This document shows positions 9,206 through 52,245 of a stretch of DNA of 64,000 nt, one piece after another. Under the pieces are notes generated by a model, which ran no database searches, was not told where the DNA came from, and saw only the letters and a list, made by a program, of their open reading frames with translations. The position numbers were made by a program, and so were the translations under genes. Position 1 is the first letter of the stretch, and every line of letters starts with the position of its first letter. This DNA comes from Halorubrum lacusprofundi ATCC 49239 (lineage in GTDB: Archaea; Halobacteriota; Halobacteria; Halobacteriales; Haloferacaceae): positions 62,001 through 126,000 of the forward strand of contig NC_012028.1 in the NCBI RefSeq assembly GCF_000022205.1, in the 5' to 3' direction.

Positions 9206-9493
9206 CTACCATCGTATTCTGACTTCGGACCATGACGGCCCCGTCTTTGCGGACACCTCTGTTGCACTGCCTTTGAACAGGCTTAACGGGCCTGTCTTTT
9301 CCGGATATACCCATGCCTACGCCATTTCATTAACCTTCGTAAACAAGTCAGCATAATTGCGGACACACCCCCTTCTCACTACCCGAACACGAAGGCGAAT
9401 TCGAACCGTCGATCGAACGCAGTCAAAACTCTCGGTGAATTCGACTACACCAAAGAGTTCTCTAACGCTGTGCGTGACTTGAGTCCGTTCCAA
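9206..9493. other. Gap with a possible gene remnant
   Basis: No intact gene is seen. A plus-strand frame from about 9290 to a TAA near 9520 ends in protein-like sequence (NAVKTLGEFDYTKEF, NAVRDLSPFQLQYFVHIP) without a good start. This may be the tail of a lost gene. Confidence 0.3.
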
Positions 9494-10642
9494 CTACAGT
9501 ACTTCGTTCACATCCCGTAACGCATCAATTGCTTCCTGGAGATGTGCCTGTAGTTCCTCGCTCCCAACGTCGTCACTCGCGGTTTGACTACCACGACGGT
9601 CATCCACACCCGTGGATTGCGCCTCAGACTCCGAGTCGGCCGCACCCCACGTTTCCGTCCTGCCTAGCGAGTCAGGATCCTTGTCAGGCACTGCGTCAAG
9701 CCGCTGCTGCCCATCAGCCTCTCCTGTATCCGTGTCAGCCGTAACGGAACTCCGTTCTGACCGCTCACTATCAGTCGGCCGTCCACCGCGATTGAACGCA
9801 GACAATGGGAAACCGTACGCACAGGCGCGCTTCTGCTTATTGAACGTGGTTCGGCGCGAGATGCCCAGCACATCGATGATATCGCTGCGATCACAGCCGC
9901 GTTCAAGCGCCTGCCTCACTTGCTCGTCTTCCATGCGTTGCAACAACAGTTGGGGGTCGTCCGGGATATGGCCACGAGCGGAGCTTTCGATCTGGTCGGT
10001 GAGCCCCCACTCCCCGGTTTCGATGTCCTTATCGACGATCTGCCGGTCACGGCCTTCGACGAGGTTATCGAGCCCTGTTAGCACCCACAACCGCTCACGA
10101 ACCGCTGATACCGAGTGATCGCTCGGCAGCCCGGACACGATGTCACCAGTACGTGTCGGGCCATTTTCCGACAAGTACCGTAGAATCTCGATGTCCTGCG
10201 GAAGCAGCACACTCTGATCCTCCTCAGTGAGCTCGACTGGCGAGTCATCTGGTGTGCTCTGCTGGTGGAACCAGCTGTGACAAGACCGGCACAGGAGCGT
10301 CAGGTTCGCCATGTCGTGCTCATCCATCCCCTCAGGGTCGCGTTCGATGTGATGGACGTGCAGAGTAGCTAACCCACCCTTCTCCGGGCCCCGACGGCCG
10401 CACACCTGGCAGCGATGCCAGTATTCGGTCAACACGTCATCACGCGTCTCTGGATTCACCGTCTCGTTGCATTCACGAGGACTGGTTACGTCGGACTCGT
10501 CACCGTCTGTGCTTGCGCCGCTCAATTCATCTTTCCGAGGTTGTGATTCAGCTTCTACCATGTCGTATCTCACTTGAGGCTGCCGTTCATTTTCGACTGC
10601 TACTGCGCCGCTCTGCCGTAATCTGCTGGGGTATCGCTTCAA
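9494..10642 (-). CDS. HNH endonuclease, last gene of the HRAMP-like operon
   Basis: A 382-residue protein with a clear HNH nuclease module. Cys78 and Cys81 (CQVC) pair with CRSC (118-121) as the zinc site. HVHHIE (95-100) gives the catalytic His, and NLTLLC with CHSWFH (to 126) completes the fold. Residues about 145-270 contain winged-helix-like segments (LPQDIEILRYLSENGPTRTGDIVSGL) and an HTH-like stretch (RSDIIDVLGISRRTTFNKQKR). The C-terminus is low-complexity and acidic with a helical end. An internal start at 10562 is possible. It lies 86 nt after the exonuclease gene. As an effector nuclease in a Cas5/Cas7-containing operon it is a candidate target-cleaving enzyme (inference). Confidence 0.85.
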   Translation of the reverse strand: MKRYPSRLRQSGAVAVENERQPQVRYDMVEAESQPRKDELSGASTDGDESDVTSPRECNETVNPETRDDVLTEYWHRCQVCGRRGPEKGGLATLHVHHIERDPEGMDEHDMANLTLLCRSCHSWFHQQSTPDDSPVELTEEDQSVLLPQDIEILRYLSENGPTRTGDIVSGLPSDHSVSAVRERLWVLTGLDNLVEGRDRQIVDKDIETGEWGLTDQIESSARGHIPDDPQLLLQRMEDEQVRQALERGCDRSDIIDVLGISRRTTFNKQKRACAYGFPLSAFNRGGRPTDSERSERSSVTADTDTGEADGQQRLDAVPDKDPDSLGRTETWGAADSESEAQSTGVDDRRGSQTASDDVGSEELQAHLQEAIDALRDVNEVL

Positions 10643-15544: not shown

Positions 15545-15845
15545 ATGGTGAGCGTCGTGAATATGGTCGGGTCAGGTTCGCTCAATGTTGAGCTTGATCT
15601 TGAAACGCTCGCCGAAGAAATCGGACAACCTCAGGCTCAATATAACCCCGACAAGTATCCCGGCATGTATCTTCGATTTGAGGAAGAAGCCCCGCTGATC
15701 ACCGTCTACAGAACTGGCAAATACATCATTACTGGACCGACTTCAGAGGAAGAGCTGTTCGATCTTCGGGAACGGTTTCTGAGGTTCCTATCCGATATGG
15801 ACGTCATTGAAAACGCGACTGACGAGTGGTTCTCCGTTCAAAACT
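15545..15845 (+). pseudogene. TATA-binding protein gene, truncated by ISH3 copy 1
   Basis: About 100 residues match the first repeat of an archaeal TBP: VSVVNMVGSGSLNVELDLE, then YNPDKYPGMYLRF, ITVYRTGKYIITGPTSEEEL. DEWFSVQN marks the beginning of the second repeat. The IS starts at 15846, exactly there, so the second half (about 85 residues) is lost and the frame runs into IS sequence to a stop at about 15916. Its C-terminal half is not on the other side of the IS. Haloarchaea often carry several tbp paralogues on plasmids, and this copy is presumably non-functional. Confidence 0.8.
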
Positions 15846-17244
15846 CAGTACCTCACAAAGCATCCTCGGCTAGCTGTTTCTGCGGCCTGAGTTCTGTGTC
15901 GAAGCGGTTGTACTGACGGTCTCGACGAGAGAATTACGGACGGATCGACGGAGAGCTGTCGCTGTCGGCGGCGGTCAGCCGCCGACGCGACAGCGTCGCC
16001 ACTCACTCCGCTGGCTTGCTCGGTCGGTGGTTAGCGGTGGAATCGGTCGTCAGGTGGCCGATTCGCGGGGACGGCCCGACGCACCGCGAGGGCCGTCCAC
16101 GCAGCTCGTCGAATCATATTGACGAACTCCTTGTACGGCCACCACCAGAGGCGACGCCCGCCTCGGCGGGGCGTCGCCACATACTCGTAGTGAAGGTACC
16201 GCCAGACGTTCTGTAAGAGGAGACTCACCACCACGTACAGCAGCCGTACCGTTGGATCTCGTGTTGTCGTTGTCGCTATCGCTTGCTCAAACAAGCGATA
16301 GCTTGACTCGATACCGAAGCGTTTCGAGTAGTGGTATCGAGCGTCCCGTGGTGAGTCGATGAACGGCACGTCAGCGGCGTAGCCGTGACGCGCCACACCG
16401 TTCTCGTCATACTTCCCATTTAGGTACGTACAGTCGATGTAGACGGGAAAATCGACGGTCCAGCTGTGACCGTCGAGTTTCCCCGTCAGATCATGCTGAA
16501 TGACGCGACTCCAGCCTTCCGAGAGCTCTTGCTGAATCGCCTCACCCCACCGGATGATCGGGATCACGTACGCGTAATTGTGCGCCTGAAGCAGCGTGAG
16601 ACACTTACTGTCGTAGAATCCGCGATCAAGGTAGACGGCCTTGACCCCGGCGTCAAGGCCGTCGAGGACACCGAAGAACTCAGCGAGGACACTACTTGCG
16701 GTATCGCCGTCTTTGAGACGGCGTACCGCCAGCGTGTAGCGTTTGTTCTTCACACGCGCGTAGAGTGTGGCATAGGCGTGGAACGCAGTGGTTCCACGCT
16801 TCGCTACCGAGTGATAGAGGCCGTCTGTGTCGTCTTCGTCACCGTAGTAGGGCCGCAGGTGGAGGTCTGCGCAGACCTCCACCTGTTCGGGGAGCAATTC
16901 ATCGAGATCCTTTCGCAGGAGCGTGTTAGCGACTCGTTCGAGCCGTTCCGGCTCGAACTTCGTCCGAAGATGGTAGAGGACCGTGTTCCCAGCGGGTGAG
17001 TTCTGGCTCGACGCACAGAGCGTAGAGACAGAGGTCCCGTCGGCGCAAGCGCCGACGAGGACCTCATAGATGTCTTCAGCAGTGATTTCAGCGTTATTGG
17101 CTAACGAGAGCGAAACTTCCTCGTCAAGGCGGTTGACGAGAAAGTTAAGAAGCTGGTCCTCGTGGATCTCACCGTCTGCTTGTTTGGTTTTAGACACACC
17201 TTCAGCAAGCAGACGTTCTAACTAAGCGGCTTTGTGAAGTACTG
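15846..17244 (-). mobile_element. ISH3-type insertion sequence, copy 1 (1399 bp)
   Basis: The ends are imperfect inverted repeats: left CAGTACCTCACAAAGC, right (reverse complement) CAGTACTTCACAAAGC. The transposase starts 47 bp from the right end. By eye it differs from copies 2 and 3 at two bases (16368 A for G, giving Val for Ala, and 16514 G for T, silent). Flanking 5-mers AAACT and ATACT do not match, so no target duplication is retained. Confidence 0.9.
16031..17197 (-). CDS. ISH3-type DDE transposase, copy 1
   Basis: A 388-residue transposase beginning at GTG (VSKTKQADGEIHEDQ). AVYLDRGFYDSKC carries a catalytic Asp. RFGIESSYRLFEQA fits the YREK-like signature with the catalytic Glu. 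LLYVVVSLLLQNVWRYLHY is the hydrophobic C-terminal helix typical of IS4/ISH3 relatives. It catalyses cut-and-paste transposition of its IS. The gene is packed with perfect inverted repeats, for example 15-bp arms meeting at 16870/16871. Copy 1 carries Val where copies 2 and 3 have Ala (AADVPFID versus AADAPFID). Confidence 0.9.
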   Translation of the reverse strand: MSKTKQADGEIHEDQLLNFLVNRLDEEVSLSLANNAEITAEDIYEVLVGACADGTSVSTLCASSQNSPAGNTVLYHLRTKFEPERLERVANTLLRKDLDELLPEQVEVCADLHLRPYYGDEDDTDGLYHSVAKRGTTAFHAYATLYARVKNKRYTLAVRRLKDGDTASSVLAEFFGVLDGLDAGVKAVYLDRGFYDSKCLTLLQAHNYAYVIPIIRWGEAIQQELSEGWSRVIQHDLTGKLDGHSWTVDFPVYIDCTYLNGKYDENGVARHGYAADVPFIDSPRDARYHYSKRFGIESSYRLFEQAIATTTTRDPTVRLLYVVVSLLLQNVWRYLHYEYVATPRRGGRRLWWWPYKEFVNMIRRAAWTALAVRRAVPANRPPDDRFHR

Positions 17245-17367
17245 ATACTCGATTTCAACGGATAAACGTTCGCAAACCAACTTATTCAACGATACGGATT
17301 GGGGTGCTGTATCACCTCCCTACTCACAACGGTTCGTTGAGGAAGGCGACTTAGCACCCACAAGTTG

Positions 17368-22536: not shown

Positions 22537-24741
22537 TTAGTTAATCGAGTCCGGGATCACGATCGTGAACACAGTGTTTCCGTTACTATCGACGCCCCAT
22601 ATGCTGTAGACGTACAACCTGTGATCGTAGGACCCCGACGACGAAGCTTGCAGCCCCACACCGATATGCCGGGTCCCGCTGATACCAGACGTGTTCAGGC
22701 TATCTGTGCGTCGGGAGAAACTACTGGAATTCTTGTGTTGGTAGGAGGCATCAAGATTTCCACCATCAACATTCTCATCGTGAATGTTCGAGAGCGTTGA
22801 GTCAATCCCGATGTTAACTGCCCCTCGGCCGCCGTAGTCAAGCATCCAATCAACGTATACGGTTTCCACATCCGAGAGGTCGATTTGCCCGCCGGTTGTC
22901 CCGACCATGATTTCACCGCCGCCGCCAGTCCCGTCCAGGTCGATGTCGTATTGCCAGTTGTTCGAGTTCGTGGAGAATGAGGTGGATGCTTCTGGATCCT
23001 CGTGAATGTACTGGCTCATCCCGCTGGTCCGTTCACCGCCAGCCTCAACAGACAGGTTCCTGGTCGTCGAATCAGAGTCACCGTCATCATCAGTGACAGT
23101 GAGCTCCACGGTGTACGTTGCCGAGTCTGCATACTGGTGAGACACGGTCTTTCCTGTTGCAGTTGCTCCGTCTCCGAAGTCCCACGCGTAGGAACTGATT
23201 GTTCCATCAGAGTCACTACTACCAGAGCCATCGAACGAGATCGTGTCGTCAGTTGTCGGGTCGCTCGGCGAGTACGTGAAGCTAGCCGAGGGTAGATCGT
23301 TCACTTCCACAGTCTTCGAAGTAGATGCACTGGCTCCGTACTCGTCTGTAACAGTCAACGTGACCGTGTACACATCCGGCGTGCCGTAGGAGTGTGACGT
23401 CGTCGCGCCTGTGGCTGTTGCGCCATCACCAAAGTCCCACTCGTACGTGAGCATGGACCCATCGGGGTCTGAGGAGCTACTCCCGTCGAAGGAGAACGAG
23501 GTGTCAGCGGTCCCGGTACTCGGGTCAACTGTGAAGGAGGCATCCGGCGTACGGGAGGTGACAGTGATAGTGCTGGTTGCCGTATCGGTGTTCCCGTATT
23601 CGTCGGTAACAGTCAACTCAACGGTGTAGTCACCAGGATCAGCGTACGAGTGTGATGTCGTTTCGCCGGTCGTAGTTGCACCGTCACCGAATGCCCACTC
23701 GTACGTGAGCGTAGAACCATCCGGATCACTCGAACCAGCCCCATCAAATGCGAAGGTCGTATCCGCATTACCGGTGGTCGAGTCAGTAGTGAACGATGCG
23801 TCCGGGTTCCGAGATTCAACCGTGATTGAAGTGGTTGCTATGTCGGAGTTTCCGTACGCGTCCGTGACGGTCAGTTCAGCCGTGTAAGTACCAGGAGTCG
23901 CGTACGAGTGCGGCGTGGTTTCTCCGGTTGCGGTTGCGCCGTCACCGAACGTCCACTCGTACGTGATCGTGGACCCGTCAGGGTCACTCGATCCGCTCCC
24001 ATCGAACGAGAACGAGGTATCAGCATCACCAGTAGACGGGGAAACAGTGAACGACGCATCCGGGGCCCGCGAATTAACCGTGACTGGTGTAGTCGTTGTG
24101 TCCGTGTTCCCGTACTCGTCTTCAACGATAAGCTCGACTGTGTAATCTCCGGGTTCGCTAAACGAGTGAGGCGTCGTCTCTCCAGTTTCAGTCGCCCCAT
24201 CTCCGAAGTTCCAGGTGTATGCCAACGCCTCTCCATCGGGATCGGTCGAACCACTTGCGTCAAACGAGAACGTCGTGTCTGTGTTTCCGGTTGTTTGGTC
24301 TGCGGTGAACGAGGCCGTTGGCGGACGCGATTCTACAGTGACCGTGACCGAGGCTGTGTCTGTATTCCCGTACTCGTTCGTCGCGGTAACTGTGACAGTG
24401 AAGGAATCAACAGTACTGAACGAGTGAGAGACTGTGTCACCAGCCCCGGATTTTGTTGTACCGTCACCGAATGCCCATTCGTACGAAATTGACGTATCTG
24501 TTGGATCGGTAGTGCCGGTCGCATCAAACGAGAACGTCGTATCGAGATCACCAGTCGATACGTCTACACTCACCGCAGCTTCTGGTGGCCGCGCGATCGT
24601 GACGTTCCCGTTCTTCATGCCGAACCCGTTGCTCTCGTTAATTTCCTCTTCCCACGACGAACCGCCCTCTCCCCACTTGAACTCATCACTGCTCGCCATT
24701 CCCTGTTTTTTCGTGGTGAATGTGGACGTGTCTTCTGCCAT
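22537..24741 (-). CDS. Six-PKD-repeat surface-type protein lacking a signal peptide
   Basis: A 734-residue protein with an unusual N-terminus (MAEDTSTFTTKKQGMASSDE, Trp/Gly/Glu-rich, no hydrophobic segment). Six PKD domains span about residues 55-570, each with its FGDG core (AFGDG, NFGDG, TFGDG, AFGDG, DFGDG, DFGDG) and a Y-T-V-E-L-T-V strand. The last 160 residues are a Gly/Ser-rich beta domain (GGQIDLSDVETVYVDWMLDY). PKD domains are normally extracellular adhesive or structural modules. With no signal peptide this may be a virion or fibre component, or exported by another route. Its start lies 115 nt after the IS-truncated beta-rich gene. Confidence 0.8.
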   Translation of the reverse strand: MAEDTSTFTTKKQGMASSDEFKWGEGGSSWEEEINESNGFGMKNGNVTIARPPEAAVSVDVSTGDLDTTFSFDATGTTDPTDTSISYEWAFGDGTTKSGAGDTVSHSFSTVDSFTVTVTATNEYGNTDTASVTVTVESRPPTASFTADQTTGNTDTTFSFDASGSTDPDGEALAYTWNFGDGATETGETTPHSFSEPGDYTVELIVEDEYGNTDTTTTPVTVNSRAPDASFTVSPSTGDADTSFSFDGSGSSDPDGSTITYEWTFGDGATATGETTPHSYATPGTYTAELTVTDAYGNSDIATTSITVESRNPDASFTTDSTTGNADTTFAFDGAGSSDPDGSTLTYEWAFGDGATTTGETTSHSYADPGDYTVELTVTDEYGNTDTATSTITVTSRTPDASFTVDPSTGTADTSFSFDGSSSSDPDGSMLTYEWDFGDGATATGATTSHSYGTPDVYTVTLTVTDEYGASASTSKTVEVNDLPSASFTYSPSDPTTDDTISFDGSGSSDSDGTISSYAWDFGDGATATGKTVSHQYADSATYTVELTVTDDDGDSDSTTRNLSVEAGGERTSGMSQYIHEDPEASTSFSTNSNNWQYDIDLDGTGGGGEIMVGTTGGQIDLSDVETVYVDWMLDYGGRGAVNIGIDSTLSNIHDENVDGGNLDASYQHKNSSSFSRRTDSLNTSGISGTRHIGVGLQASSSGSYDHRLYVYSIWGVDSNGNTVFTIVIPDSIN

Positions 24742-24856: not shown

Positions 24857-25084
24857 TTACCCGGTGATGTTTACCTGCGTGACGGTCGGGGTCGTCAGCG
24901 GTGTGCTGGACTCCAGGTTGATCCGGACCTGGAAGTCCGTATGGGGCTGGCCCCATGAAAGCGTGTACTCAGTATCTCCAGCGAGAGTTACGGTATTCTG
25001 TTCTTCGTCTGCCGTCCCTGGTGACCCAACAACAGTTACGGAGATCGTCTCGCCGTTTCGGGCGTATGCGAGGTTGGTCAGGTT
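24857..25084 (-). pseudogene. C-terminal fragment of a beta-rich gene, truncated by ISH3 copy 2
   Basis: The native part reads NLTNLAYARNGETISVTVVG to TPTVTQVNITG, 76 residues of alternating Thr/Val strands like an archaeal pilin/archaellin or CARDB/DUF-type exported domain. The IS left end begins at 25085, so the N-terminal part and any signal peptide are missing, and the frame picks up IS-encoded residues. It is upstream of the PKD gene in the same direction and was probably co-transcribed. Confidence 0.6.
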
Positions 25085-26483
25085 CAGTACCTCACAAAGC
25101 ATCCTCGGCTAGCTGTTTCTGCGGCCTGAGTTCTGTGTCGAAGCGGTTGTACTGACGGTCTCGACGAGAGAATTACGGACGGATCGACGGAGAGCTGTCG
25201 CTGTCGGCGGCGGTCAGCCGCCGACGCGACAGCGTCGCCACTCACTCCGCTGGCTTGCTCGGTCGGTGGTTAGCGGTGGAATCGGTCGTCAGGTGGCCGA
25301 TTCGCGGGGACGGCCCGACGCACCGCGAGGGCCGTCCACGCAGCTCGTCGAATCATATTGACGAACTCCTTGTACGGCCACCACCAGAGGCGACGCCCGC
25401 CTCGGCGGGGCGTCGCCACATACTCGTAGTGAAGGTACCGCCAGACGTTCTGTAAGAGGAGACTCACCACCACGTACAGCAGCCGTACCGTTGGATCTCG
25501 TGTTGTCGTTGTCGCTATCGCTTGCTCAAACAAGCGATAGCTTGACTCGATACCGAAGCGTTTCGAGTAGTGGTATCGAGCGTCCCGTGGTGAGTCGATG
25601 AACGGCGCGTCAGCGGCGTAGCCGTGACGCGCCACACCGTTCTCGTCATACTTCCCATTTAGGTACGTACAGTCGATGTAGACGGGAAAATCGACGGTCC
25701 AGCTGTGACCGTCGAGTTTCCCCGTCAGATCATGCTGAATGACGCGACTCCATCCTTCCGAGAGCTCTTGCTGAATCGCCTCACCCCACCGGATGATCGG
25801 GATCACGTACGCGTAATTGTGCGCCTGAAGCAGCGTGAGACACTTACTGTCGTAGAATCCGCGATCAAGGTAGACGGCCTTGACCCCGGCGTCAAGGCCG
25901 TCGAGGACACCGAAGAACTCAGCGAGGACACTACTTGCGGTATCGCCGTCTTTGAGACGGCGTACCGCCAGCGTGTAGCGTTTGTTCTTCACACGCGCGT
26001 AGAGTGTGGCATAGGCGTGGAACGCAGTGGTTCCACGCTTCGCTACCGAGTGATAGAGGCCGTCTGTGTCGTCTTCGTCACCGTAGTAGGGCCGCAGGTG
26101 GAGGTCTGCGCAGACCTCCACCTGTTCGGGGAGCAATTCATCGAGATCCTTTCGCAGGAGCGTGTTAGCGACTCGTTCGAGCCGTTCCGGCTCGAACTTC
26201 GTCCGAAGATGGTAGAGGACCGTGTTCCCAGCGGGTGAGTTCTGGCTCGACGCACAGAGCGTAGAGACAGAGGTCCCGTCGGCGCAAGCGCCGACGAGGA
26301 CCTCATAGATGTCTTCAGCAGTGATTTCAGCGTTATTGGCTAACGAGAGCGAAACTTCCTCGTCAAGGCGGTTGACGAGAAAGTTAAGAAGCTGGTCCTC
26401 GTGGATCTCACCGTCTGCTTGTTTGGTTTTAGACACACCTTCAGCAAGCAGACGTTCTAACTAAGCGGCTTTGTGAAGTACTG
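25085..26483 (-). mobile_element. ISH3-type insertion sequence, copy 2 (1399 bp)
   Basis: Same ends and length as copy 1, at an exact 9239-bp offset. By eye identical to copy 3 at both positions where copy 1 differs. The left-flank 5-mer AGGTT and right-flank AGCAT differ, so no target duplication is present here. AGGTT instead recurs beside copy 3. Confidence 0.9.
25270..26436 (-). CDS. ISH3-type DDE transposase, copy 2
   Basis: A 388-residue transposase identical to copy 1 except Ala for Val in AADAPFID. The base responsible (25607 G) completes a perfect hairpin GGCGCGTCA...TGACGCGCC that copy 1 breaks. All other motifs (AVYLDRGFYDSK, RFGIESSYRLFEQA) are intact, so it is presumably active. 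Confidence 0.9.
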   Translation of the reverse strand: MSKTKQADGEIHEDQLLNFLVNRLDEEVSLSLANNAEITAEDIYEVLVGACADGTSVSTLCASSQNSPAGNTVLYHLRTKFEPERLERVANTLLRKDLDELLPEQVEVCADLHLRPYYGDEDDTDGLYHSVAKRGTTAFHAYATLYARVKNKRYTLAVRRLKDGDTASSVLAEFFGVLDGLDAGVKAVYLDRGFYDSKCLTLLQAHNYAYVIPIIRWGEAIQQELSEGWSRVIQHDLTGKLDGHSWTVDFPVYIDCTYLNGKYDENGVARHGYAADAPFIDSPRDARYHYSKRFGIESSYRLFEQAIATTTTRDPTVRLLYVVVSLLLQNVWRYLHYEYVATPRRGGRRLWWWPYKEFVNMIRRAAWTALAVRRAVPANRPPDDRFHR

Positions 26484-26770
26484 AGCATCGTTCGATACGC
26501 GTGGACAATATCCAATCGCTCCATTTTCGCTACAACGTACTGTCCACGCTCTGTAATCCGATACAGATTGTTCACCGATGTCTCCCGATCATCAATCTCC
26601 GGGGTAATCAATCCGAGGCCTTTCGCTTCCCCAATACGCTTCGTCAGCGTTGACGAACTAATATGCAATCGTTCGTTCAAGTGCTTGAACTGCTTTGCCT
26701 CTCCCTTCAGCACCACTAAGAGACCCATCGCGCCACGCAATTCAAAGAACCCCCTAAGCGTGTCTGCCAT
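26484..26770 (-). pseudogene. Winged-helix regulator, extreme C-terminus replaced by ISH3 copy 2
   Basis: About 95 native residues starting MADTLRGFFELRGAMGLLVV. LKGEAKQFKHLNERLHISSSTLTKRIGEAKGLGLI is the HTH with recognition helix, followed by a wing (NNLYRITERGQYV) and a final helix. It resembles HxlR/PadR-type small regulators of about 100-110 residues. The IS joins at 26483 so that the last native residues are replaced by IS-encoded ones up to a stop at 26441. The DNA-binding part is complete, so the chimera might still function. Confidence 0.6.
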
Positions 26771-26988: not shown

Positions 26989-29067
26989 ATGACGGCCACT
27001 CCCGACTCAAAACAAGCGGTTCTCGACTCTCTGTCTGAGTCCCATCGGGAGTGGCCATACTCGACTAACCACGATACAGTGAATAACGACCCGTGGCCGC
27101 TCGCTTGGGATGCTGCTGCATTCATTGAGGAATGGTTCTCTCATCCTGAGCATACCGACGTGGAAGAAGCGATCTGCCACATAGAACTCGACCCGTCAGG
27201 GTTCGGGTACGATGTCACTGACTGGCATTTCAAGCAACCTCCAGAACCGTTGTTGAAGGCGCACCTTCTTCGAATCGTCAAAGGTTGGGGCGGCGAAACT
27301 GCACTCCACGACTACCTTGACGATAACACCGAGTTAGTAGCTGCACTAGGGTTCGGAAACGGGCTTGCATCGAAAACTACGCTCTGGCGAGTCTGGAACG
27401 AGAATCGACTTTCAGACGACCACAAGCAAGTCGTCCGAACCATCGGCCAAGTGCTTGTCAACGTAGCACGAGAACACGGTGTCCCTGCTCCCGATGAGGT
27501 GTTCTACCCCGACCCGAGTGTTGACGCTCCAAATGCAGTCGCACAGGATGATTTGACAGTCCGAGACCGGACGATTGCAAAAACACGGGATGTCTGGAAG
27601 CAAGCGAAACCAATGGTGACTGAGAATTATCAGTTGCCGCGTGGAAAGAATACAGAAATCCATCAGAACGCGTTCTTTGAAGCACACGCGTTCATGGGGT
27701 CGCGTGAAGAGATGTACGCGGAGGATGGGACGGTGAACTTTGCTGCAGATACCACACGCGAACGTGTACAGACTGGCAGTACTCATCGCCACCACTTGCA
27801 CAAGATTGGCCCGACAGATGCTCGTCAGATGCATCGTGATGCGACACGAGAGTTAATTGAGCGTGCTCGCCGTGATTCTGAACTCGTTGGAGGGGTCCTG
27901 GTCAGTATTGATATCACGAAATCGAACCCGTACAGTACAAAAAAGAAAATTGAGTCTGACGAGGCTGGGAATGTGACAAACAAGTGGCTACTCGGCTACA
28001 AAAACGACGATAAAAAGTCCACAGAGTTCTATTTCCAGTGGGCAAGCGTCCAAATCGTCGGATTAGATATCCCGCTTGTACTTGATGCGATTCCGGTTCA
28101 CCGTGGCCTGAAGCGTGCTACCATCGTTGATCGGTTACTGGAGAGTGCAACGGATCTCGTTGATGTCGAAATGGCAATGATGGACCGGGAATTCGCTCAC
28201 GATGCAGTCAAGGACGTATGTGATGATCACGAGGTCTACTATTTGAATCCGGGTAAAATGAGGACCAGTGAACGTGCAACGTGTACCCGTCTTCGCCGTC
28301 AGGGTAAACTCATTCATATTGAGAGTGACGAAGACACCGACAGCAGCACGGACGAAGGACGAACGACGCTTACGGACTTCACGTCTGGTGAGGAAGATTC
28401 CGATGAGGAAGCGGGTGTTGTTCGGAAGCGTGTGTATGTCCCTGCAATAAACGCTGAGCGAACCGGTGACGATGGCGATGATGATTCAGATGAGACCGAT
28501 AGTGAGGATGGAGACAACGAGTCAAACGATAAGGATGAGCTGCGCCAAGAGTTGCTACATGAGTTCTCAGAAGTAAAGGATTCAGATGCGGAAGAGATCG
28601 AGCAGCTGTTCGGTGACGTGATTGATGAGGTCCGAGACGAGGAAGACAAGCGAAAGCTCCCGGGGAATAAGGAGGACAAGGACCGGTTTATGTTGTTCGA
28701 GTCGAATCACCCGGCTCTTGAAATCCCAGAAAACAGTGACAATGGTGAGGAGCCTATGTCAGAGACGGAGAAGGCACACATGGTGAGTCGTGTTCTGCGT
28801 AAGTACAAGCACCGGTGGGGGATTGAGAACGGATTTAAGCAAATCAAGAGTTTCCGTGTTCGGACTACGTCGATGAATCCTGAGTATCGGTTTTTCAACT
28901 TCCTATACGCGTGCACGCTGTACAACGTGTGGAGATTGACTGATTTGCTAGTCAAGTTGGAGCTATTAGCGGAGTCTGAGTTTGAGTACAAACCCCTTGT
29001 GACAGCAGACCTCTTCCTGACGATTGCGAAGGAGTACAATATCGTTGGGTTAGACCCTCCCGACTAG
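26989..29067 (+). CDS. Large DDE transposase-like protein with acidic insertion
   Basis: A 692-residue protein. GGVLVSIDITKSNPYS has the first catalytic-type Asp. DVEMAMMDREFAHDAVK has the second. YKHRWGIENGFKQIKSFRVRT carries the Glu in an IS4/IS5-like context, followed by FFNFLYACTLYNVWRLTDLL. Between the second Asp and the Glu lies an acidic insertion of about 120 residues (Asp/Glu/Ser-rich, EDSDEEAGVV to DEVRDEEDKRK). Most IS transposases have 300-450 residues. No convincing terminal inverted repeats are seen around the gene, so it may be a solitary or domesticated transposase, or an unclassified IS. Confidence 0.75.
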   Translation: MTATPDSKQAVLDSLSESHREWPYSTNHDTVNNDPWPLAWDAAAFIEEWFSHPEHTDVEEAICHIELDPSGFGYDVTDWHFKQPPEPLLKAHLLRIVKGWGGETALHDYLDDNTELVAALGFGNGLASKTTLWRVWNENRLSDDHKQVVRTIGQVLVNVAREHGVPAPDEVFYPDPSVDAPNAVAQDDLTVRDRTIAKTRDVWKQAKPMVTENYQLPRGKNTEIHQNAFFEAHAFMGSREEMYAEDGTVNFAADTTRERVQTGSTHRHHLHKIGPTDARQMHRDATRELIERARRDSELVGGVLVSIDITKSNPYSTKKKIESDEAGNVTNKWLLGYKNDDKKSTEFYFQWASVQIVGLDIPLVLDAIPVHRGLKRATIVDRLLESATDLVDVEMAMMDREFAHDAVKDVCDDHEVYYLNPGKMRTSERATCTRLRRQGKLIHIESDEDTDSSTDEGRTTLTDFTSGEEDSDEEAGVVRKRVYVPAINAERTGDDGDDDSDETDSEDGDNESNDKDELRQELLHEFSEVKDSDAEEIEQLFGDVIDEVRDEEDKRKLPGNKEDKDRFMLFESNHPALEIPENSDNGEEPMSETEKAHMVSRVLRKYKHRWGIENGFKQIKSFRVRTTSMNPEYRFFNFLYACTLYNVWRLTDLLVKLELLAESEFEYKPLVTADLFLTIAKEYNIVGLDPPD

Positions 29068-29510
29068 CATTTTGGGGGATTGAGAATGCGATTCTCGTGA
29101 GTGGCAACACCGCTCAGTGGTGGTGATTTTCGCTGTTTTTCGGGCATAACTGGCTGTTTCTTTGAATGGTACTGATGGCTGGGTTTATTCACACTCTTGT
29201 CTGCGATTAAAAATAGTTCTCGCTCGCCGTTGTAGCCGCTATCTCGTGAAACTAGTGGACTTCCACGCAGAAAAATCTGTATCGCAACATGCAGTTTATG
29301 CTTACCATGCGTTTTCTCAGCGATTTTGACGTGGGTTTAGCAGACTGGAGCAGTCAGCCGAACCCACAAAATTATAATGAATCCGACTGAAACGCTGAAC
29401 AACTCGAATATGTCACTCTTAAAATTGCCATACTGGGCCGCGACTAGGCTTCTAACCGAATTCTGCACCAATTCAATTTCGGACGGTCGAGTCCCCAAGA
29501 GAGCGCTACA
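29068..29510. other. Non-coding gap of about 440 bp
   Basis: AT-richer DNA between the transposase-like gene and a recombinase. No open frame with protein-like sequence and no clear terminal repeat was found. It may contain the right end of the preceding element and the promoter of the next gene. Confidence 0.4.
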
Positions 29511-30818
29511 ATGAGTCGATCGGATGCCGAGCAGGAGGACAAGATCAACGCTGAGCGGATGCCATCATTCGATGATGTCCGATGGACCTCGTGTTCACTT
29601 GAGGCCTTCACGGACCTGTACTGGGACGAGATCGCCCCCTGCCTCGAAGCAGAGGGTATCGATTCGAGAAGTGAGAAGCCGACCTACCAGTGGTTTCGGG
29701 ATCACGATGCGCGGTCATTCCTCGCGGCTCTCCGTCGCCATCACGACCGCCCATTCGGAGAGTTCTGGGACGAAGACCTTGAGCTCGGTGACGATGAAGA
29801 GGGATACACATGGGAAACAACGGATGATGCAACAATCGACGCCCTCGAACAGTTCCTCAGCCGGCGGCAATCACGATACAGTCTGGCGTCGTCTTCTGTC
29901 GACGCACTCCGAACGCGACTGAACCTCTACGTCCGTGCCTACCAGGAGGCGAACGGGACGAACGACCTCCTCACACCGATTCAACGAGACCGAGAGAATC
30001 CAGCCTACGAAGCCGTTGATGCGTGCTATGCAGCATTTGACTGGTTGAACGAAGGAACCGAACGCGAATACAGTGCCCAGACTCTCCAGCGTGTGCGGCG
30101 CGTTGTCGACGCCTGGTATCAGCATCTGGTCGGTCGGCGGATCGCCTCGATGAACCCTGCAAGCGGTCTCTACGACGAATTTAAGTGGGAAGTCGAAGAT
30201 TCACCCACTCCGTCCCTTTCGGCGAGTCATATTCGGAAGCTGATGCAGGCGGCGGGGACAACGCGAGAACAACTGCTCGTCGTGGCGTTAGCTGGCTGGG
30301 GACTTCGAGCGAGTGAGGTCGCAGCACTCCATGTCTCGCAGTTCCACCGTGATGTTCCTGAAGACGACGTCCCCTTCATCATGTTCAAGAGCCGTAAGAA
30401 CGGGCCCGGTGAGGTGTCTCTCCTGTACGGAATGGACGTGTTTGACTTCCAAATCGACGAACTAGCTGAAGATGAGACGTGGGCTGGATATCTCTTCCCA
30501 TCCTCACAGGGAAAAACGCCGTACGTGACACGCGATACGATTCGTAATTGGTTCCAAAATCTTGCATTGGAAGCAGGTCTTCCCGAGCGAATCGAGGGTG
30601 AGCGTCCGAGTCCGCAGCTTTGCCGTCGATTCTGGTACGATACCTATACTGCAGTCCTCGAAGGTGTACTCGAAGGCGTCGACGAAATCGCTGCAGAGCA
30701 GGGGAGTAGCGATCCTCGGGTAGTGATGCAAAATTACCTCTCTGACTCGCGTTCTCGTCGAGTCCGGCGCGAGTTCATGCAAGAACAACTGGACGAAGCC
30801 TTCGAAGAGAGAACGTAA
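29511..30818 (+). CDS. Tyrosine recombinase-like protein
   Basis: A 435-residue protein with the organisation of haloarchaeal tyrosine recombinases. A long N-terminal region ends in a SAM-like core-binding segment (SASSVDALRTRLNLYVRAYQ-like helices). LLVVALAGWGLRASEVAALHVSQF is box I with the catalytic Arg. RPSPQLCRRFWYDTY takes the place of box II, lacking the first His as in the recombinase at 1219-2577. DPRVVMQNYLSDS provides a possible Tyr. The shared box II variant in two proteins suggests a subfamily. Its proximity to the partition genes suggests plasmid dimer resolution (inference). Confidence 0.72.
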   Translation: MSRSDAEQEDKINAERMPSFDDVRWTSCSLEAFTDLYWDEIAPCLEAEGIDSRSEKPTYQWFRDHDARSFLAALRRHHDRPFGEFWDEDLELGDDEEGYTWETTDDATIDALEQFLSRRQSRYSLASSSVDALRTRLNLYVRAYQEANGTNDLLTPIQRDRENPAYEAVDACYAAFDWLNEGTEREYSAQTLQRVRRVVDAWYQHLVGRRIASMNPASGLYDEFKWEVEDSPTPSLSASHIRKLMQAAGTTREQLLVVALAGWGLRASEVAALHVSQFHRDVPEDDVPFIMFKSRKNGPGEVSLLYGMDVFDFQIDELAEDETWAGYLFPSSQGKTPYVTRDTIRNWFQNLALEAGLPERIEGERPSPQLCRRFWYDTYTAVLEGVLEGVDEIAAEQGSSDPRVVMQNYLSDSRSRRVRREFMQEQLDEAFEERT

Positions 30819-31308
30819 CATCACCCACCGACTTTTCCGTGGTCATTGCTTGGTTGGTGATTGAATCAATGAATCACAGATTCCAGGAATAATGAAGATT
30901 CGCGAACTCGCCAAGCAAGACGTCGATCAGTGAATCACGGAGTCACAGATACTTCATTCAAGAATTTCCGGAAACGCAGGATTCCGGCGAAGCGGGATCG
31001 TATTACAGCACAAGGATTAGAGTAGATAAGCTAGAAGAATCTCAGCTCTTTCCGGAAACGACCCACTCATTCTGTTATAATCAGACAGAGAATCACTATG
31101 ACGTGCCGTATTCGTTCTCAGTATGTGGCCACGAGAACTACGAAACCGTTCACGAGCGGCCGGTGAAGTACCAAGGTTCTCAGTAGCGTTCGCCGTTGTC
31201 GTCGCCGTCCTCGGGGTTATCCAGATTCTCCTCCAAGTTGTGTAGCAGAAGTAGATACAGTATATGTATCCAGAATATGGATTCGGTAAAGAGATTCAGA
31301 AATGGGTT
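30819..31308. other. Intergenic region with short repeats near the partition genes
   Basis: No gene is convincing. It holds two copies of TTTCCGGAAACG (30965-30976 and 31049-31060), several GAATCA/TGAATCACAG-type repeats at about 30863-30955, and the palindrome GATACAGTATATGTATC at 31254-31270 just beyond the ParA operon end. It may be a partition site or secondary replication element. Confidence 0.45.
31254..31270. repeat. GATACA-GTATA-TGTATC palindrome, candidate par site
   Basis: GATACA and TGTATC arms flank GTATA. The ATACAG core recurs three times at the other end of the parA operon (about 32535-32550), so the motif brackets the operon. Confidence 0.5.
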
Positions 31309-31701
31309 TCAGAACTCGTAGTCTTGTGACTCGCGGAACTGCTGGTAGCCTTTGGCACCGGCTTCAAGCGTCTCTGGGGCCACCTCGCCGAGCGCGACTC
31401 GAACCAGCAGCCGTAGCGCCTCGGCCTTGCTTGTACCGTCGCGGTCGCGGTCCAGTTCGTCGGCAGCCGCTTCGATGACCGCTTCCAGTTCGCCCGTCTC
31501 CTCAAGCCCGGCGAACAGCGCCGCGAGGTTGCCGTCGCGGATGGTCAGGTTCTCAGAGATGTCGCTGGCGTAGGCGTCGGCAACGGCGTCGACGAGCGTC
31601 GGTTCGTCGGCCACAGTTATGTCGGCCGGGTCGGTTTCGTGGCGCTTCTGTGTCTTGGACTGCTGGAGCAGTTCCTCGGCGTCGGGAGTGTCGTCAGTCA
31701 T
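31309..31701 (-). CDS. ParA-partner protein (probable centromere-binding component)
   Basis: A 130-residue acidic, helical protein starting MTDDTPDAEELLQQSKTQKR. Its ATG overlaps the ParA stop (31698-31701). ENLTIRDGNLAALFAGLEETGELEAVIEAAADEL and KAEALRLLVRVALGEVAPETL are amphipathic helices. There is no ParB HTH signature, but haloarchaeal plasmids typically place a small unrelated partner directly after parA, and this gene fits. Site binding is inferred from position. Confidence 0.65.
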   Translation of the reverse strand: MTDDTPDAEELLQQSKTQKRHETDPADITVADEPTLVDAVADAYASDISENLTIRDGNLAALFAGLEETGELEAVIEAAADELDRDRDGTSKAEALRLLVRVALGEVAPETLEAGAKGYQQFRESQDYEF

Positions 31702-32534
31702 TGTCGAAGAGTCTGGAGCAGCTGGTCAGTCGCCGTACTGTACGCGTCGAGGGCTTCTTGCCCGGTAGAGTAGAGTTCGTCGTCGTCGACAGCGAACAGC
31801 GTCGACCCCGCCTCCTGGTAATCGCCGATGTTCTGCGTCGAGACGACCTGCAGGCCTGCGATATCGGGGTAGGCCTCGCGGATGTCCGCAACGAACTCCG
31901 AGGACTGCGTGGTCCGGCGGTCGATCATCGTCGGCAACACCATCGCGAGCCGCGGATCGACCGGGTAGGCGTCACGGATCTCCTGCAGATCAGCCTCGAG
32001 ATTCTCAAGCTGGTTACGCTCAAACGCGCCGGGGCGCAGCGGAGCAATCACGTCCTCCACCGCGTAGAGGCCGGAGATGGCGATGTTGTCCTCCTTCCCC
32101 GGCAGGTCAACAAGTACGAAGTCGTACGTGGCCGCGAGGTCCTCAGCAATGAAGTCTGCCAGCCGGTCGTAACGCTCCTCGCGCGGGACGTTCGCGAGGT
32201 TGTTGTCAGCTGCTCCGAGACCGGGGTCGGCCGGGATAAGGACCGGACCCTCGCCCGTGTCGAAGGTCATCCGCTCGACGACGTTGTCGATACCGTTGCG
32301 GATGAGCTCCCACTGGTCGCCGAACACAGCCGAGATCGGTGCGTCGATGCTCTCCTCGTCGATGGAGATGCCGAAGTGGGTCGCGAGGTCGTTCTGTGTC
32401 CCTGCGAGGTCGATAAGGAGCGTGTTCAAGTCATGGTTCTGAGCCGCGGCAACAGCGACGTGTGCTGCCGTCGTCGTCTTTCCCACGCCCCCTTTCTGGA
32501 CGTAGGTTGCCGCGGTGAGGATTCCGTTTTTCAT
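31698..32534 (-). CDS. parA: ParA-type partition ATPase
   Basis: About 278 residues from the ATG at 32532-32534. An in-frame ATG five codons upstream at 32549 is possible. ATYVQKGGVGKTTTAAHVAV is the deviant Walker A of ParA/MinD proteins. LLIDLAGTQNDLATHFG is motif A'. YDFVLVDLPGKEDNIA is Walker B. It would drive plasmid segregation by ATP-dependent nucleoid patterning with its partner protein. ATACAG repeats lie directly upstream of the start and beyond the operon end. The Orc1 gene and origin are 1-3 kb away, forming a compact replicon core. Confidence 0.9.
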   Translation of the reverse strand: MKNGILTAATYVQKGGVGKTTTAAHVAVAAAQNHDLNTLLIDLAGTQNDLATHFGISIDEESIDAPISAVFGDQWELIRNGIDNVVERMTFDTGEGPVLIPADPGLGAADNNLANVPREERYDRLADFIAEDLAATYDFVLVDLPGKEDNIAISGLYAVEDVIAPLRPGAFERNQLENLEADLQEIRDAYPVDPRLAMVLPTMIDRRTTQSSEFVADIREAYPDIAGLQVVSTQNIGDYQEAGSTLFAVDDDELYSTGQEALDAYSTATDQLLQTLRQ

Positions 32535-32550
32535 ATACAGATACAGCATA
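32535..32550. repeat. ATACAG direct repeats upstream of parA
   Basis: ATACAG occurs at about 32535, 32541 and 32548 (ATACAGATACAGCATACAG) at the parA start. It is probably an operator for autoregulation and possibly part of the centromere. Confidence 0.5.
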
Positions 32551-32605
32551 CAGAATCAGGAATCATAAACCTGCTGCAGAATCTCGCAGTTCAGGCGGTA
32601 TTTAG

Positions 32606-33352
32606 GTGGTCGACCACAGTGGCAGCTTCATCACCGAACAGCTCGTCGACGCGGTCCATGTGGAGCGAGCCGTGGGTGGTGTGGGTGGCGTGGGTGGCGT
32701 GGAATTTGACCTTCTGATCCGGGTGGTGTCGTTAGCCGAATATTGCTCGATGAAAGGCCAATTACTGCGTTTCGATGAGACGCCGCTCCTGTGCCTCGTC
32801 ACGGACACCGTTCGTCATCTCTACGTCGATTCGGCCCTCGTTGTTGAGCACCATCCAAACCCAGTCCTTGAACTCGTCTCGCGCTCGAAGAAATCCGCCC
32901 AGGAGCTGGTGTGGGCATCTATCGGCAACGTGCTGACCACGATTCGGATCTGTGAATCCCACGACTGCGGCGTGCTCGTCCCGTGGAACTCCTGGCGCCA
33001 CGAGTTCTACAAGCCGATGGGAAAGGTTCCGATCAAGCACCTCGTCGAACGGAATCGCGTTTCCAAGCCGCTGGAGGGGTACACGCAGAACACCCAGAAC
33101 GTGGCGGCCCTGAAACGGGCTCGCGACCAAGACCTAGCCGTCCACCCTGGACAGGATATCCAATATGTGGTCGACGACGACGAGAAGACCTCGCGAGAGC
33201 GGGTCGCCCTCGCCCACGAGGAGATAGAGTCGTACGATTCCTCGTACTACGAGACACAGCTGATCCGAGCGGTCGAGAGCGTGCTGTCACCACTCGGATG
33301 GGACCGGACGGACATTGACGAGGGCTCTCAGCCGATAGAAATGCCGTCTTGA
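32606..33352 (+). pseudogene. C-terminal remnant of a family B DNA polymerase
   Basis: The frame has 248 codons, but recognisable sequence lies in the last 130 or so. LVERNRVSKPLEGYTQNTQNVAALKRARDQDL, HPGQDIQYVVDDDEKTSRERVALAHEEIESYD and ETQLIRAVESVLSPLGWDR correspond to the thumb/C-terminal end of haloarchaeal plasmid-type PolB. The exonuclease and palm domains (DTDS motif) are absent, and the first 50 residues look like non-coding sequence read through. It is therefore a truncated polB next to orc1, a common pairing on haloarchaeal replicons. Confidence 0.7.
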
Positions 33353-33400
33353 GTTCATTCGGTGCCGGCGACGAATCGTCATAACAAACTCCACGCCCAG

Positions 33401-33503
33401 CCCCGGATTTCCGTCGTTTGGAACCAACCCCACGTTTCCGACGTAATTTTCGACCCCCTCGTTTCCGTCGTTTCCGCACGCCCCACCCCAGATTTCCGTC
33501 GTC
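33401..33503. repeat. ORB-like elements, left cluster (four copies)
   Basis: Four plus-oriented origin-recognition-box-like repeats follow the orc1 3' end: CCCCGGATTTCCGTCGT (33401), ACCCCACGTTTCCGACGTAA (33427), CCCCCTCGTTTCCGTCG (33454) and CCCCAGATTTCCGTCGTC (33487). The core TTTCCG(T/A)CGT is shared with the origin clusters on the other side of orc1. Confidence 0.75.
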
Positions 33504-33529
33504 TGCCCCCACTCAGTAGTAGGAGGTCA

Positions 33530-34762
33530 CTACTCGCGAGTCCAGTCCTGCATCCGGCTGTCCTCGAGAATCGTTTCGCGGACGACCTGAGGATCTTCAA
33601 TGAGTCGGTTCTGGAGATGGATGCCGCCCGCACTCCCCTTGTTGATCTTCTCGATTTCGACAACCCCGAGGAAGGCTTGCTCTTTCAGGATGTCGCGGAA
33701 CCGGCGAACGGAGAGGATGTCCATGTCCAGGTGATTGCAGATCCGCTCATACTGGTCGTACACGCGGCTCGTCAGGAAGGCAGCGTCGTTGGAGTTGACG
33801 CTCAGTTCTGTGAGCGCCAGCAACGCCGCCTTCGCCTGCGTGGGTGCGCCATTCACGAGTTCTCTGAACCGGTCCTTTTCGGCGTGCTGCTGTGCCTGGC
33901 GGACGTGTTCCTCCGTCACTTGCTCTGCTCCGGCCTCGTAGGCGACCTCGCCGGCGTGGCGAAGAATGTCGATCGCCTTCCGAGCATCGCCGTGTTCCTG
34001 CGCGGCGAAGGCCGCCGAGAGCGGAATCACGTCCTCGGAAAGGACGCCGTCCTGGAAGGCGTCCTCGCGATTGAACATGATCTCCCGGAGCTGGTTAGCG
34101 TCGTATGGCTTGAAGAACAGTTCCTTGTGCTGGAAGCTGCTTTTCACGCGCTCGTTCACGTTGTCGACGTACTGGATCTTGTTGCTGATCGCGATGACAC
34201 CGACGCTACAGTCGATTTTCCCCGCCTCCTCAGCGCGCGAGAGCTTCATCAGCACGCTGTCGTCGTTCATCAAATCGATCTCGTCGAGGATGATGATCAC
34301 AGAATCGAATTGAGCGTCGAGCGTCTTCCAGAGGAGTTTGTAGTATTTCGACGTACTGAGGCCGGTATGGGGGACGGAGATTCCAGTCGTAGATTCATCG
34401 TTCAGCTTCGCAGCAAGTGAGGAGACCGCCTGAGTCTCAGTATTGTCTTCAGCACAGTCGATATACGCTGTTCCAATCTCGACGCCATCCTGAGCGGCAT
34501 TTTGAGCTCGCTGGCAGACGTGTTTTGAAACGAGAGATTTACCGGTCCCAGTTTTCCCGTAGATCATCACGTTCTCCGGGGAGTACCCGTGGACAGCACC
34601 GTTGAGACGTTTCGCGAGCTTCGAGATCTCCTCGTCGCGACCGACGATCCGGTCAGCTTCCGGAACGTGGCCGATTTTCAGGAGGTCCTTGTTCGCGAAG
34701 ATACGATGCCCGGATTCAAAGAGTGGATCGTCGACAGAACTGGATGAAGAGTCGGGCGTCAT
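33530..34762 (-). CDS. orc1: Orc1/Cdc6 replication initiator
   Basis: A 410-residue initiator of the archaeal Orc1/Cdc6 family. MIYGKTGTGKSLVSKHV is Walker A. SVIIILDEIDLMNDD is Walker B. VIAISNKIQYVDNVNERVKSSF is sensor 1 and the arginine-finger region. The C-terminal winged helix (LALTELSVNSNDAAFLTSRVYDQYE...LSVRRFRDILKEQAFLGVVE) binds ORB repeats. It recognises the origin and loads MCM. It is flanked on both sides by ORB-like repeats, so it is the likely cognate initiator of this replicon. Confidence 0.95.
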   Translation of the reverse strand: MTPDSSSSSVDDPLFESGHRIFANKDLLKIGHVPEADRIVGRDEEISKLAKRLNGAVHGYSPENVMIYGKTGTGKSLVSKHVCQRAQNAAQDGVEIGTAYIDCAEDNTETQAVSSLAAKLNDESTTGISVPHTGLSTSKYYKLLWKTLDAQFDSVIIILDEIDLMNDDSVLMKLSRAEEAGKIDCSVGVIAISNKIQYVDNVNERVKSSFQHKELFFKPYDANQLREIMFNREDAFQDGVLSEDVIPLSAAFAAQEHGDARKAIDILRHAGEVAYEAGAEQVTEEHVRQAQQHAEKDRFRELVNGAPTQAKAALLALTELSVNSNDAAFLTSRVYDQYERICNHLDMDILSVRRFRDILKEQAFLGVVEIEKINKGSAGGIHLQNRLIEDPQVVRETILEDSRMQDWTRE

Positions 34763-34811
34763 TGAATATCACACAGTGTGAGTGGGGGGAGTATAAATCT
34801 AGTGGAGAACG

Positions 34812-34986
34812 CCACCCCACGTTTCCGACGTTCCTTGTCCGATATCAGTGGGAAAAAGCCGTAATACGGTAGTATTGCATTTCTGATAATATAACCGCGT
34901 TTCCGACGTGAGATAGGAAACCCGTAGACGGAAGCGTCGCCTCGATGTCGAATCCCGAACCCACACACCCCACGTTTCCGTCGTAA
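34812..34986 (+). repeat. ORB-like elements, middle cluster (three copies)
   Basis: CCCCACGTTTCCGACGTT, CCGCGTTTCCGACGTG and ACCCCACGTTTCCGTCGTAA lie between the orc1 start and the AT-rich core, in plus orientation. Confidence 0.8.
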
Positions 34987-35286
34987 TCACTGAATAGGTG
35001 GGGTGGGGACTCGAAGAAGACGTGCACGACGAGATACCAAAGACGAGAGCCGCCTAGCCGTCCAAAGTTGGCCGTCTATAGAAGCAGCTGGAAAGGATTG
35101 TTTCATCTGAGGGGGCGAAGTACTTCGTCCCCTCCTTGGTCGAAGCACACTTAATGGACATTTCTCAGCTTTGCTACTTTAATCTATGTGTTCCAGAAGT
35201 TAGTTCACCTCTAGATTGGTTCTAGGTCAACATAATTAGTAGCTGCATAGCACTATCATAGCCTCTCCCTACGCCGTCGTGGAGAA

Positions 35287-35440
35287 ACGACGGAAACGCG
35301 GGGGGTGTGATCCAATCGAAAACAGTGTCACCCCCTTCACCCACATCCAGTTACGACGGAAACGCGGGGGGTGTGATCCAATCGAAAACAGTGTCACCCC
35401 CTTCACCCACATCCAGTTACGACGGAAACGTGGGGTGGGT
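35287..35440 (-). repeat. 66-bp tandem repeat carrying inverted ORBs
   Basis: Two identical consecutive 66-bp units begin at 35287 and 35353 (ACGACGGAAACGCGGGGGG...), and a third ORB starts the next unit at 35419 with a slightly different end (ACGTGGGGTGGGT). Each unit has one minus-oriented ORB with a G-string, so the duplication multiplies initiator sites. CCGTCGT/ACGACGG also forms an inverted repeat around 35274-35293. Confidence 0.85.
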
Positions 35441-52040: not shown

Positions 52041-52245
52041 TACTGACCACCTCCTTCGTCGTGACCGCCATCGGCTGGCGCGGTTGCGTTACCGATTTGG
52101 ATACCTTGATCCGGTGTCGAGAACGCGTTGTCCGGGTTACCGCCCTGTGCCTCGACCCATCTCTCGTAGTCGTCGGGGTTAATGATGTACACGGTCGCTA
52201 TCATCTTTGAGTGGCCTTTGCCACAGAGTTCCGCGCACCGAACCT
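52040..52245 (-). pseudogene. coxB: Cytochrome oxidase subunit II, C-terminal fragment cut by ISH3 copy 3
   Basis: The frame reads VRCAELCGKGHSKMIATVYI and ends DEGGGQ. C-AEL-C-x3-H-x2-M is the CuA copper centre of subunit II. Everything upstream (membrane anchor and first part of the cupredoxin domain, about 150 residues or more) is missing because ISH3 copy 3 starts at 52246. The remaining 68 residues could not form the electron-entry site alone. Confidence 0.92.

Follow-up and report, generated by a model that had tools for sequence, protein, structure and literature searches.

A haloarchaeal DDE transposase, distantly related to ISH7, from a putative cargo transposon that would insert beside dif-like sites

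A 692-aa DDE transposase gene of Halorubrum lacusprofundi ATCC 49239 most probably lies at the right end of a haloarchaeal transposon that carries cargo genes, is distantly related to ISH7 and would insert in one direction about 10 bp from a dif-like site. The gene was analysed in a stretch of 64,000 nucleotides of contig NC_012028.1 (positions 62,001 to 126,000), called the window below, together with homologous loci from other genomes. Since the dif-like site adjoins chromosomal XerA genes and Xer-like integrases of plasmids, the element can be regarded as a putative “dif-site hunter”.

The transposase and its relatives

The gene is a single ORF in the ORF list (26989-29067, +), and residues 383-643 of its product match Pfam DDE_Tnp_1 with 31.3 bits (cut-off 23), which agrees with the first-pass annotation of a 692-aa DDE transposase-like gene made from the sequence alone. 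The profile matches comprise DDE_Tnp_1 and models of the ISH3, IS4 and IS701 type; the NCBIfam ISH3 model (NF033541) gave 59.3 bits, below its cut-off of 225, which places the protein outside the ISH3 family. The three acidic catalytic positions noticed at first are confirmed as D308 (27910-27912), D399 (28183-28185) and E613 (28825-28827; all codons on the + strand). All three are invariant across the 18 sequences of alignment A1, window protein included, the latter two also in alignment A2, and the conserved D, D and E of a DDE transposase are present.

D399 and E613 are 214 residues apart, and an acidic low-complexity stretch with 37% D+E lies between them (residues about 450-570; 28336-28698, +), as seen from composition and alignment A2. 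It had been described as an Asp/Glu/Ser-rich insertion; it is indeed acidic, and “Ser-rich” was an overstatement (7-9% serine). The stretch occurs with varying length in the aligned proteins of the 692 and ISH7 types and is missing from both aligned 566-type proteins, a distribution that suggests a lineage-specific addition between the second D and the E. The AlphaFold model of the transposase has a mean pLDDT of 48.8, and no claim made here rests on predicted structure.

The genome of H. lacusprofundi holds one close copy of the transposase; the next match is 32% identical across residues 3-453 and reaches 44-46% identity in about 100 C-terminal residues. Of 44 related loci retrieved, 43 belong to named haloarchaea and the remaining one is a weak match. 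At seven other loci, the proteins are 58-77% identical to the window transposase.

Ends, cargo and target duplications of 692-type elements

Comparison with these relatives revealed a common element order, which is left end, variable cargo, divergent winged-helix gene, transposase and right end. In the homologue alignment the right end stands at a near-constant distance, about 200 bp beyond the stop codon. The left end (GACGAGTTCACTAGCT; 16 bp, with more conserved bases inside) was found in six loci, where 1561-2748 bp separate it from the start of the transposase gene downstream, a distance that varies because of the cargo. Identity among L140-L142 is 92-95% for about 3 kb, beyond which the three loci abruptly differ. 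The divergent upstream gene is present in all eight loci including the window, encodes 144-167 aa outside the window, and is HxlR/MarR-like by Pfam in L140.

As for the cargo, L141 carries a pair of genes of 108 and 204 aa and a DUF5518 protein, L143 carries an HMG-CoA reductase (TIGR00532, 408.9 bits), and the cargo of other 692-type copies consists of small or uncharacterised proteins. The reductase gene lies at 9215-10483 (-) of L143, and TIGR00532 is the degradative, NAD type.

Target duplications of 6-8 bp (GGCTCCT, AACTAC, TCGCCGT and TGTCCTCT) flank four of the seven 692-type elements with both ends. The first-pass annotation had advised a search of homologue flanks for shared ends and duplications, and the outcome is mixed, with a right end at fixed distance, a left end at variable distance and duplications in these four of seven. 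Duplications of at least 7 bp were seen in a minority of elements with both ends (3 of 7, 3 of 11 and 6 of 19 across three groups), counts that include L228, L029 and L234 (length 2137), for each of which an internal sequence resembling a left end was used in place of the true one; the null is rough, mismatched pairs reaching 7 bp in 4.8%, 0.9% and 9.0%. The left-end pattern (with 8 spacer bases) occurs once in each of seven genomes with a 692-type transposon, the G318 copy being on a different contig from the transposase, and was absent from seven other genomes, namely the window's own and six without such a transposase. A tRNA gene was also considered as the target and rejected, no tRNA being present in 16 loci.

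The window copy is a remnant

In the window, the right-hand part of a 692-type cargo transposon remains (26485 to about 29265, +), delimited by the start of DNA homology and by alignment of the right end. The right end, CTCGTGAAACTAGTGGACTTCCA, was placed within about 2 bp at 29243-29265 (+), about 200 bp past the stop codon, by alignment with seven homologues. A repeat search inside the window found no convincing pair of terminal repeats, so the earlier remark on “no visible IS ends” is right for the window alone, but homologue comparison exposes the right end.

On the left, an ISH3-family IS (25084-26484, -; ORF 25270-26436; NCBIfam ISH3, 377.8 bits), delimited by its ends and copies, sits inside the winged-helix gene. 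The latter is truncated to 109 aa (26441-26770, -), of which the first 97 residues match the homologues of 144-167 aa (86% identical to the L140 product across these 97 aa) and the last 12 are encoded in ISH3 DNA. Homology to the relatives' DNA begins at 26484/26485, exactly at the ISH3 boundary, and the flanks of this ISH3 copy show no 5-bp duplication. The left end is missing from the window because the ISH3 copy interrupts the upstream gene. In the rest of the genome, a pattern search (with the seven genomes with a 692-type transposon as positive control) did not find the transposon left end, and a search run without positive control did not find the C-terminus of the winged-helix protein. 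The element probably lost its left part, and any cargo, by an ISH3-mediated deletion, and since ISH3 replaced the left end, this copy should no longer move by itself.

ISH3 has 31 full-length near-identical copies genome-wide, a number that reflects a recent burst; three of them are in the window (15845-17245, 25084-26484 and 52244-53646). To the left of the middle copy lies a 734-aa ORF with six PKD-domain matches (22537-24741, -).

A dif-like motif beyond the right end

Beyond the right end stands a 25-bp dif-like motif, in the window TCTGTATCGCAACATGCAGTTTATG (29276-29300, +), which we take as the putative target site outside the element from its score, its family-wide position and its association with XerA. 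In seven of eight flanks the motif is separated from the right end by about 10 bases that vary, and its consensus is near TTTGTATAGCGACATACAGTTTATA; the version in L144 is poor. The position weight matrix was built by eye from these seven flanks, L144 being omitted for its poor site, and its top score in the 64-kb window is 36.4 at 29276-29300, itself a training site, followed by 9.5 for the next best position.

Generally, the position of the motif is nearly fixed. Among 100 distinct transposase 3' regions, which remained after removal of identical ones and of those with less than 480 bp of flank, 37 have a same-strand motif 90-455 bp past the stop codon, which in 32 cases stands at +198 to +212, and the opposite orientation was seen in one copy only. 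Without the seven training sites the motif is present in 30 of 93 regions (26 at +198 to +212), and when three motif-positive loci retrieved through recombinase searches (L134, L193 and L205) are also left out, in 27 of 90; random windows contain it in 2 of 1489 cases. By type, the motif accompanies 16 of 32 566-type, 10 of 40 ISH7-like and 10 of 13 692-type transposases (including the seven training sites), and one of 15 692-like transposases below 55% identity. ISH7-like transposases below 60% identity have it in 3 of 16 cases, all three off the usual position, and those of at least 60% identity in 7 of 24, beside which a 566-type count of 13 of 24 is given. In subgroups with other right ends, the motif is rarely or never at the usual place. 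The other 63 of the 100 regions lack it, and by the signatures used just 11 of these then show the left end of another element.

Along the flank, the right end is conserved, the gap of about 10 bp is variable, the motif is conserved and the sequence beyond is variable again, which places the motif outside the element. No exact pair of empty and occupied sites was found; at the chromosomal XerA locus, L086 and the window's own genome match to the left and right of the insertion, with inexact junctions and an inexact duplication.

The motif beside XerA genes

A XerA-like gene was found in all 116 genomes searched. From the matches in these genomes we took the best 30 XerA loci by score, which lean to the genus and family of the window for that reason. 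It turned out that all 30 have the motif beside chromosomal XerA, 22-414 bp beyond the 3' end of the gene and on the opposite strand, and 14 have an additional inverted copy upstream of XerA; none was found in shuffled loci, the shuffles preserving base composition only. In 28 of the 30 loci no such transposase was seen in the stretch examined. Two of the seven training sites (L140 and L142) come from the XerA locus of the respective genome. The test thus depends in some measure on the training set, although the 30 loci include neither of these genomes.

A strict motif pattern gave 79 matches in 97 genomes, with at least one match in 56 genomes, and the reversed pattern gave 0. XerA lies no more than 500 bp from 17 of the strict matches (expected about 0.05) and no more than 5 kb from 29 (expected about 0.25). 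The window's own genome has no strict match. With one mismatch allowed, a looser pattern gave 14 matches there, of which 7 are exact, and one match when reversed. All seven exact matches adjoin XerA, an Xer-like integrase or one of these transposases. Among the seven one-mismatch matches, one flanks XerA and one is beside another integrase; the rest have no recognised recombinase within about 2 kb.

In L140, L142, L071, L086 and L097, transposons are present in the surroundings of XerA. In L142 the XerA gene stands between two inverted motif copies and is inverted relative to L140. Recombination between inverted motifs would be expected to leave such an arrangement, a hint in which either orientation could be ancestral.

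Taken together with its position, the motif near XerA is a candidate haloarchaeal dif. The classical dif geometry of two 11-bp inverted arms and a 6-bp spacer was tried and rejected for weak self-complementarity, palindromy being weak at every centre tried. The motif is not single-copy either, since many genomes have several copies, inverted pairs among them; dif is described in PMC8371274 as single-copy per chromosome.

Besides, two inverted dif-like pairs in the window's own genome (G000) flank small gene modules, which resemble the dif modules of Acinetobacter. One pair (C2:154414-155494; L177, 4415 + and 5495 -) encloses a DUF5783 and NifU-like module, and the other (C2:555249-556239; L178, 4250 + and 5240 -) encloses an uncharacterised 283-aa ORF.

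An integrase segment to the right of the motif

In the window, the motif is followed by a gene for a 435-aa Xer-like tyrosine recombinase/integrase (29511-30818, +), recognised by sub-threshold NCBIfam XerA, XerC and XerD matches. The motif stands upstream of this integrase in the window and in eight aligned homologous loci, which were retrieved with a query that contained the motif. Between motif and gene lies a long imperfect inverted repeat (GTGGGTTTAGCAGACTG.../...CAGTCAGCCGAACCCAC; 29331-29367), present with changes in the homologues, which could be the integrase's own site.

Positions 29275-35360 are 99.6% identical over 6.1 kb, up to the end of the compared stretch, to a genome from a different genus (G110). 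The 22 differences include 17 in the first 60 bp. Such identity points to a very recent transfer of the integrase-bearing segment, and since near-identity begins at the motif, recombination at or near the motif may have reshaped this junction.

Related elements and arrays

Elements of the ISH7-like group, which includes ISH7A, have clear terminal repeats (GACGTGTTGCGAAGATAGGG.../...CCATCTTCGCAACATCAG). The 566-type ends are AGTTGAGACTGG.../...TAGTCTCAACTTCC, about 5.9 kb apart in L225, 6.8 kb in L218 and 13.6 kb in L215, with duplications ACCACGA, CGCTTGCCG and CACTGCGA respectively. Homology within 1.5 kb upstream did not find 566-type left ends because the cargo is longer, and longer stretches showed them. 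The cargo comprises ArsA, ArsD, an ArsR-family regulator, a low-molecular-weight phosphatase and a methyltransferase in L217, a ZnuA-type ABC transporter and an iron-dependent repressor in L225, and a PAS-domain kinase and a response regulator in L215.

Arrays were studied at eight loci selected for two or more close copies. All have at least two copies on one strand, head-to-tail, and in seven of them the copies abut with short separators; those in L232 do not abut. The motif follows the last copy in five of the eight. For instance, ACCCGTGA stands at all four junctions of the G030 array, including the one adjoining the motif, and the last two junctions share ACGCCTCA in G014 and CCACACAAA in G171. 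The separators differ in L230, L231 and others. Judged from these junctions, repeated 8-bp separators are what repeated insertion at one target next to the motif would leave, with the newcomer nearest the motif.

To the right of the transposon end in L013, L014, L016, L021 and L035, a left-end-like sequence near CTCGGAGGATGGATTTGATGCGTGCCTTC recurs, which points to one more subfamily of elements that takes part in these arrays.

Comparison with known systems

The closest named system is ISH7A (ISNCY) of pNRC100 from Halobacterium salinarum NRC-1, whose transposase is 36.6% identical over 93% of the length and 41% identical in alignment A2; the homology extends along most of the protein. Both systems have a small divergent gene upstream, and a dif-like motif also stands 10 bp beyond the right end of ISH7A. 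Of the end sequences, just the outer bases GACG and CAG are in common and the inner parts differ, and the 131-aa divergent protein of ISH7A shows no BLASTP similarity to the winged-helix protein (compared with the L140 homologue), although its position is alike. ISH7A spans about 3.3 kb between its ends, with one further small HTH gene annotated inside. An “undescribed IS group”, as proposed at first, is thus too strong as a whole given this named distant relative, while cargo transposons with such a target preference were not found described. With the ISH3 family there is a shared DDE core and weak profile similarity, the three subfamilies scoring 59-104 bits against the cut-off of 225; the window ISH3 copy is 1.4 kb long and does not have the long insertion between the second D and the E.

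In targeting, the nearest parallel is the IS1202 family of Acinetobacter (ISAjo2, ISAba71 and others), the “dif site hunters”, which according to PMC10132070 insert near a dif-like Xer site with a single orientation and a constant short spacing, and make a short duplication. The window element and its close relatives share the single orientation and fixed short distance, though not all subgroups do. The IS1202 elements as given in that source are bacterial and 1.5 kb long; their transposase has 441-457 aa and was modelled on TnsB, the ends are TGT/ACA, the repeats measure 24-26 bp and the duplications 5 bp. The elements here, unlike them, are archaeal and have GACG/CAG ends, duplications of 6-8 bp, cargo and arrays; their transposase has profile similarity to ISH3. 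By this comparison they appear analogous to the IS1202 “dif site hunters” and not members of that family.

For archaeal Xer/dif, PMC2958812 predicts dif sites for Thermococcales, Sulfolobales and a methanogen, near xerA in Sulfolobales. The haloarchaeal motif is likewise a conserved short site associated with a chromosomal Xer gene. It differs from the 11-6-11 inverted repeats given there for Thermococcales dif, and unlike in the systems of that source, candidate sites are also found on other replicons. A word search of that paper for “halo” returns 0 occurrences. A 2020 review of Haloferax replication (PMC7776575) states that multiple Xer homologues suggest possible dif sites, with a role that remains to be determined. 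In the text consulted of a Haloquadratum genome paper with detailed mobile-element annotation (PMC3119063), nothing concerns ISH7-like targeting or a haloarchaeal dif, and neither a haloarchaeal dif nor target choice by ISH7-like elements was found described in a literature that comprised few preprints and subscription papers.

Alternative explanations

The insertions might be ordinary ISH7-like events with little target choice, dif neighbourhoods merely tolerating them, and most ISH7-like copies are indeed off the motif (10 of 40 at it). We consider this unlikely, as tolerance does not explain the nearly fixed spacing (32 of 37 at +198 to +212) and orientation (37 on the same strand, one opposite). 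It is also quite improbable that Xer-like recombinases move the units at dif, in the manner of IMEX or dif modules, with the DDE gene as a passenger. In favour of this, the motif neighbours recombinase genes, the recombinase segment of L142 is inverted relative to L140, and some dif-like pairs flank genes without a transposase seen; but the units have conserved ends with short inverted similarity, and their 6-8 bp duplications fall outside the motif, both of which are typical traces of DDE enzymes, and array separators repeat an 8-bp target, not the motif.

If the motif belonged to the right end of the element and not to host DNA, this would account for its near-constant distance from the transposase gene across the subfamilies where it is present. 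Such a reading is very improbable: the duplicated 6-8 bp sit between the conserved end and the motif, the roughly 10 bp there vary, and 28 of 30 XerA loci have the motif without such a transposase in the stretch examined. Hardly credible, finally, is the domesticated enzyme suggested in the first-pass annotation, a transposase retained for a host function. A single close copy in the genome and an ORF that is intact although the left end is gone would fit it, but the close homologues are patchy and lie in differing contexts, with conserved transposon ends, different flanks and cargo and, in part, duplications, and we do not keep this proposal.

Proposed mechanism and significance

For the transposon inserting beside dif-like sites, the mechanism would be as follows. 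The transposase would recognise the two ends and excise the element, which would then insert, with a single orientation, some 10 bp away from the conserved dif-like site, duplicating 6-8 bp. Targeting would be by the transposase itself, perhaps through contact with a recombinase bound at the site, and XerA would be the enzyme that recombines the dif-like site.

On a broader scale, the comparisons favour, with some reserve, the following proposal. Haloarchaea would have a dif resembling TTTGTATAGCGACATACAGTTTATA next to XerA, and an archaeal DDE transposon superfamily would land there one-way, the newest element between the previous one and the site, building chronological arrays of cargo. This would be a counterpart of attTn7, independent of IS1202 and Tn7, with arsenic resistance, metal uptake, sensors and HMG-CoA reductase as the cargo.

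In conclusion, the motif in the transposon flanks offers a specific and testable dif candidate next to XerA for haloarchaea. If the proposal is true, Xer-site targeting by DDE elements arose outside bacteria too, and it would explain why cargo such as arsenic resistance gathers in arrays at one place in haloarchaea.
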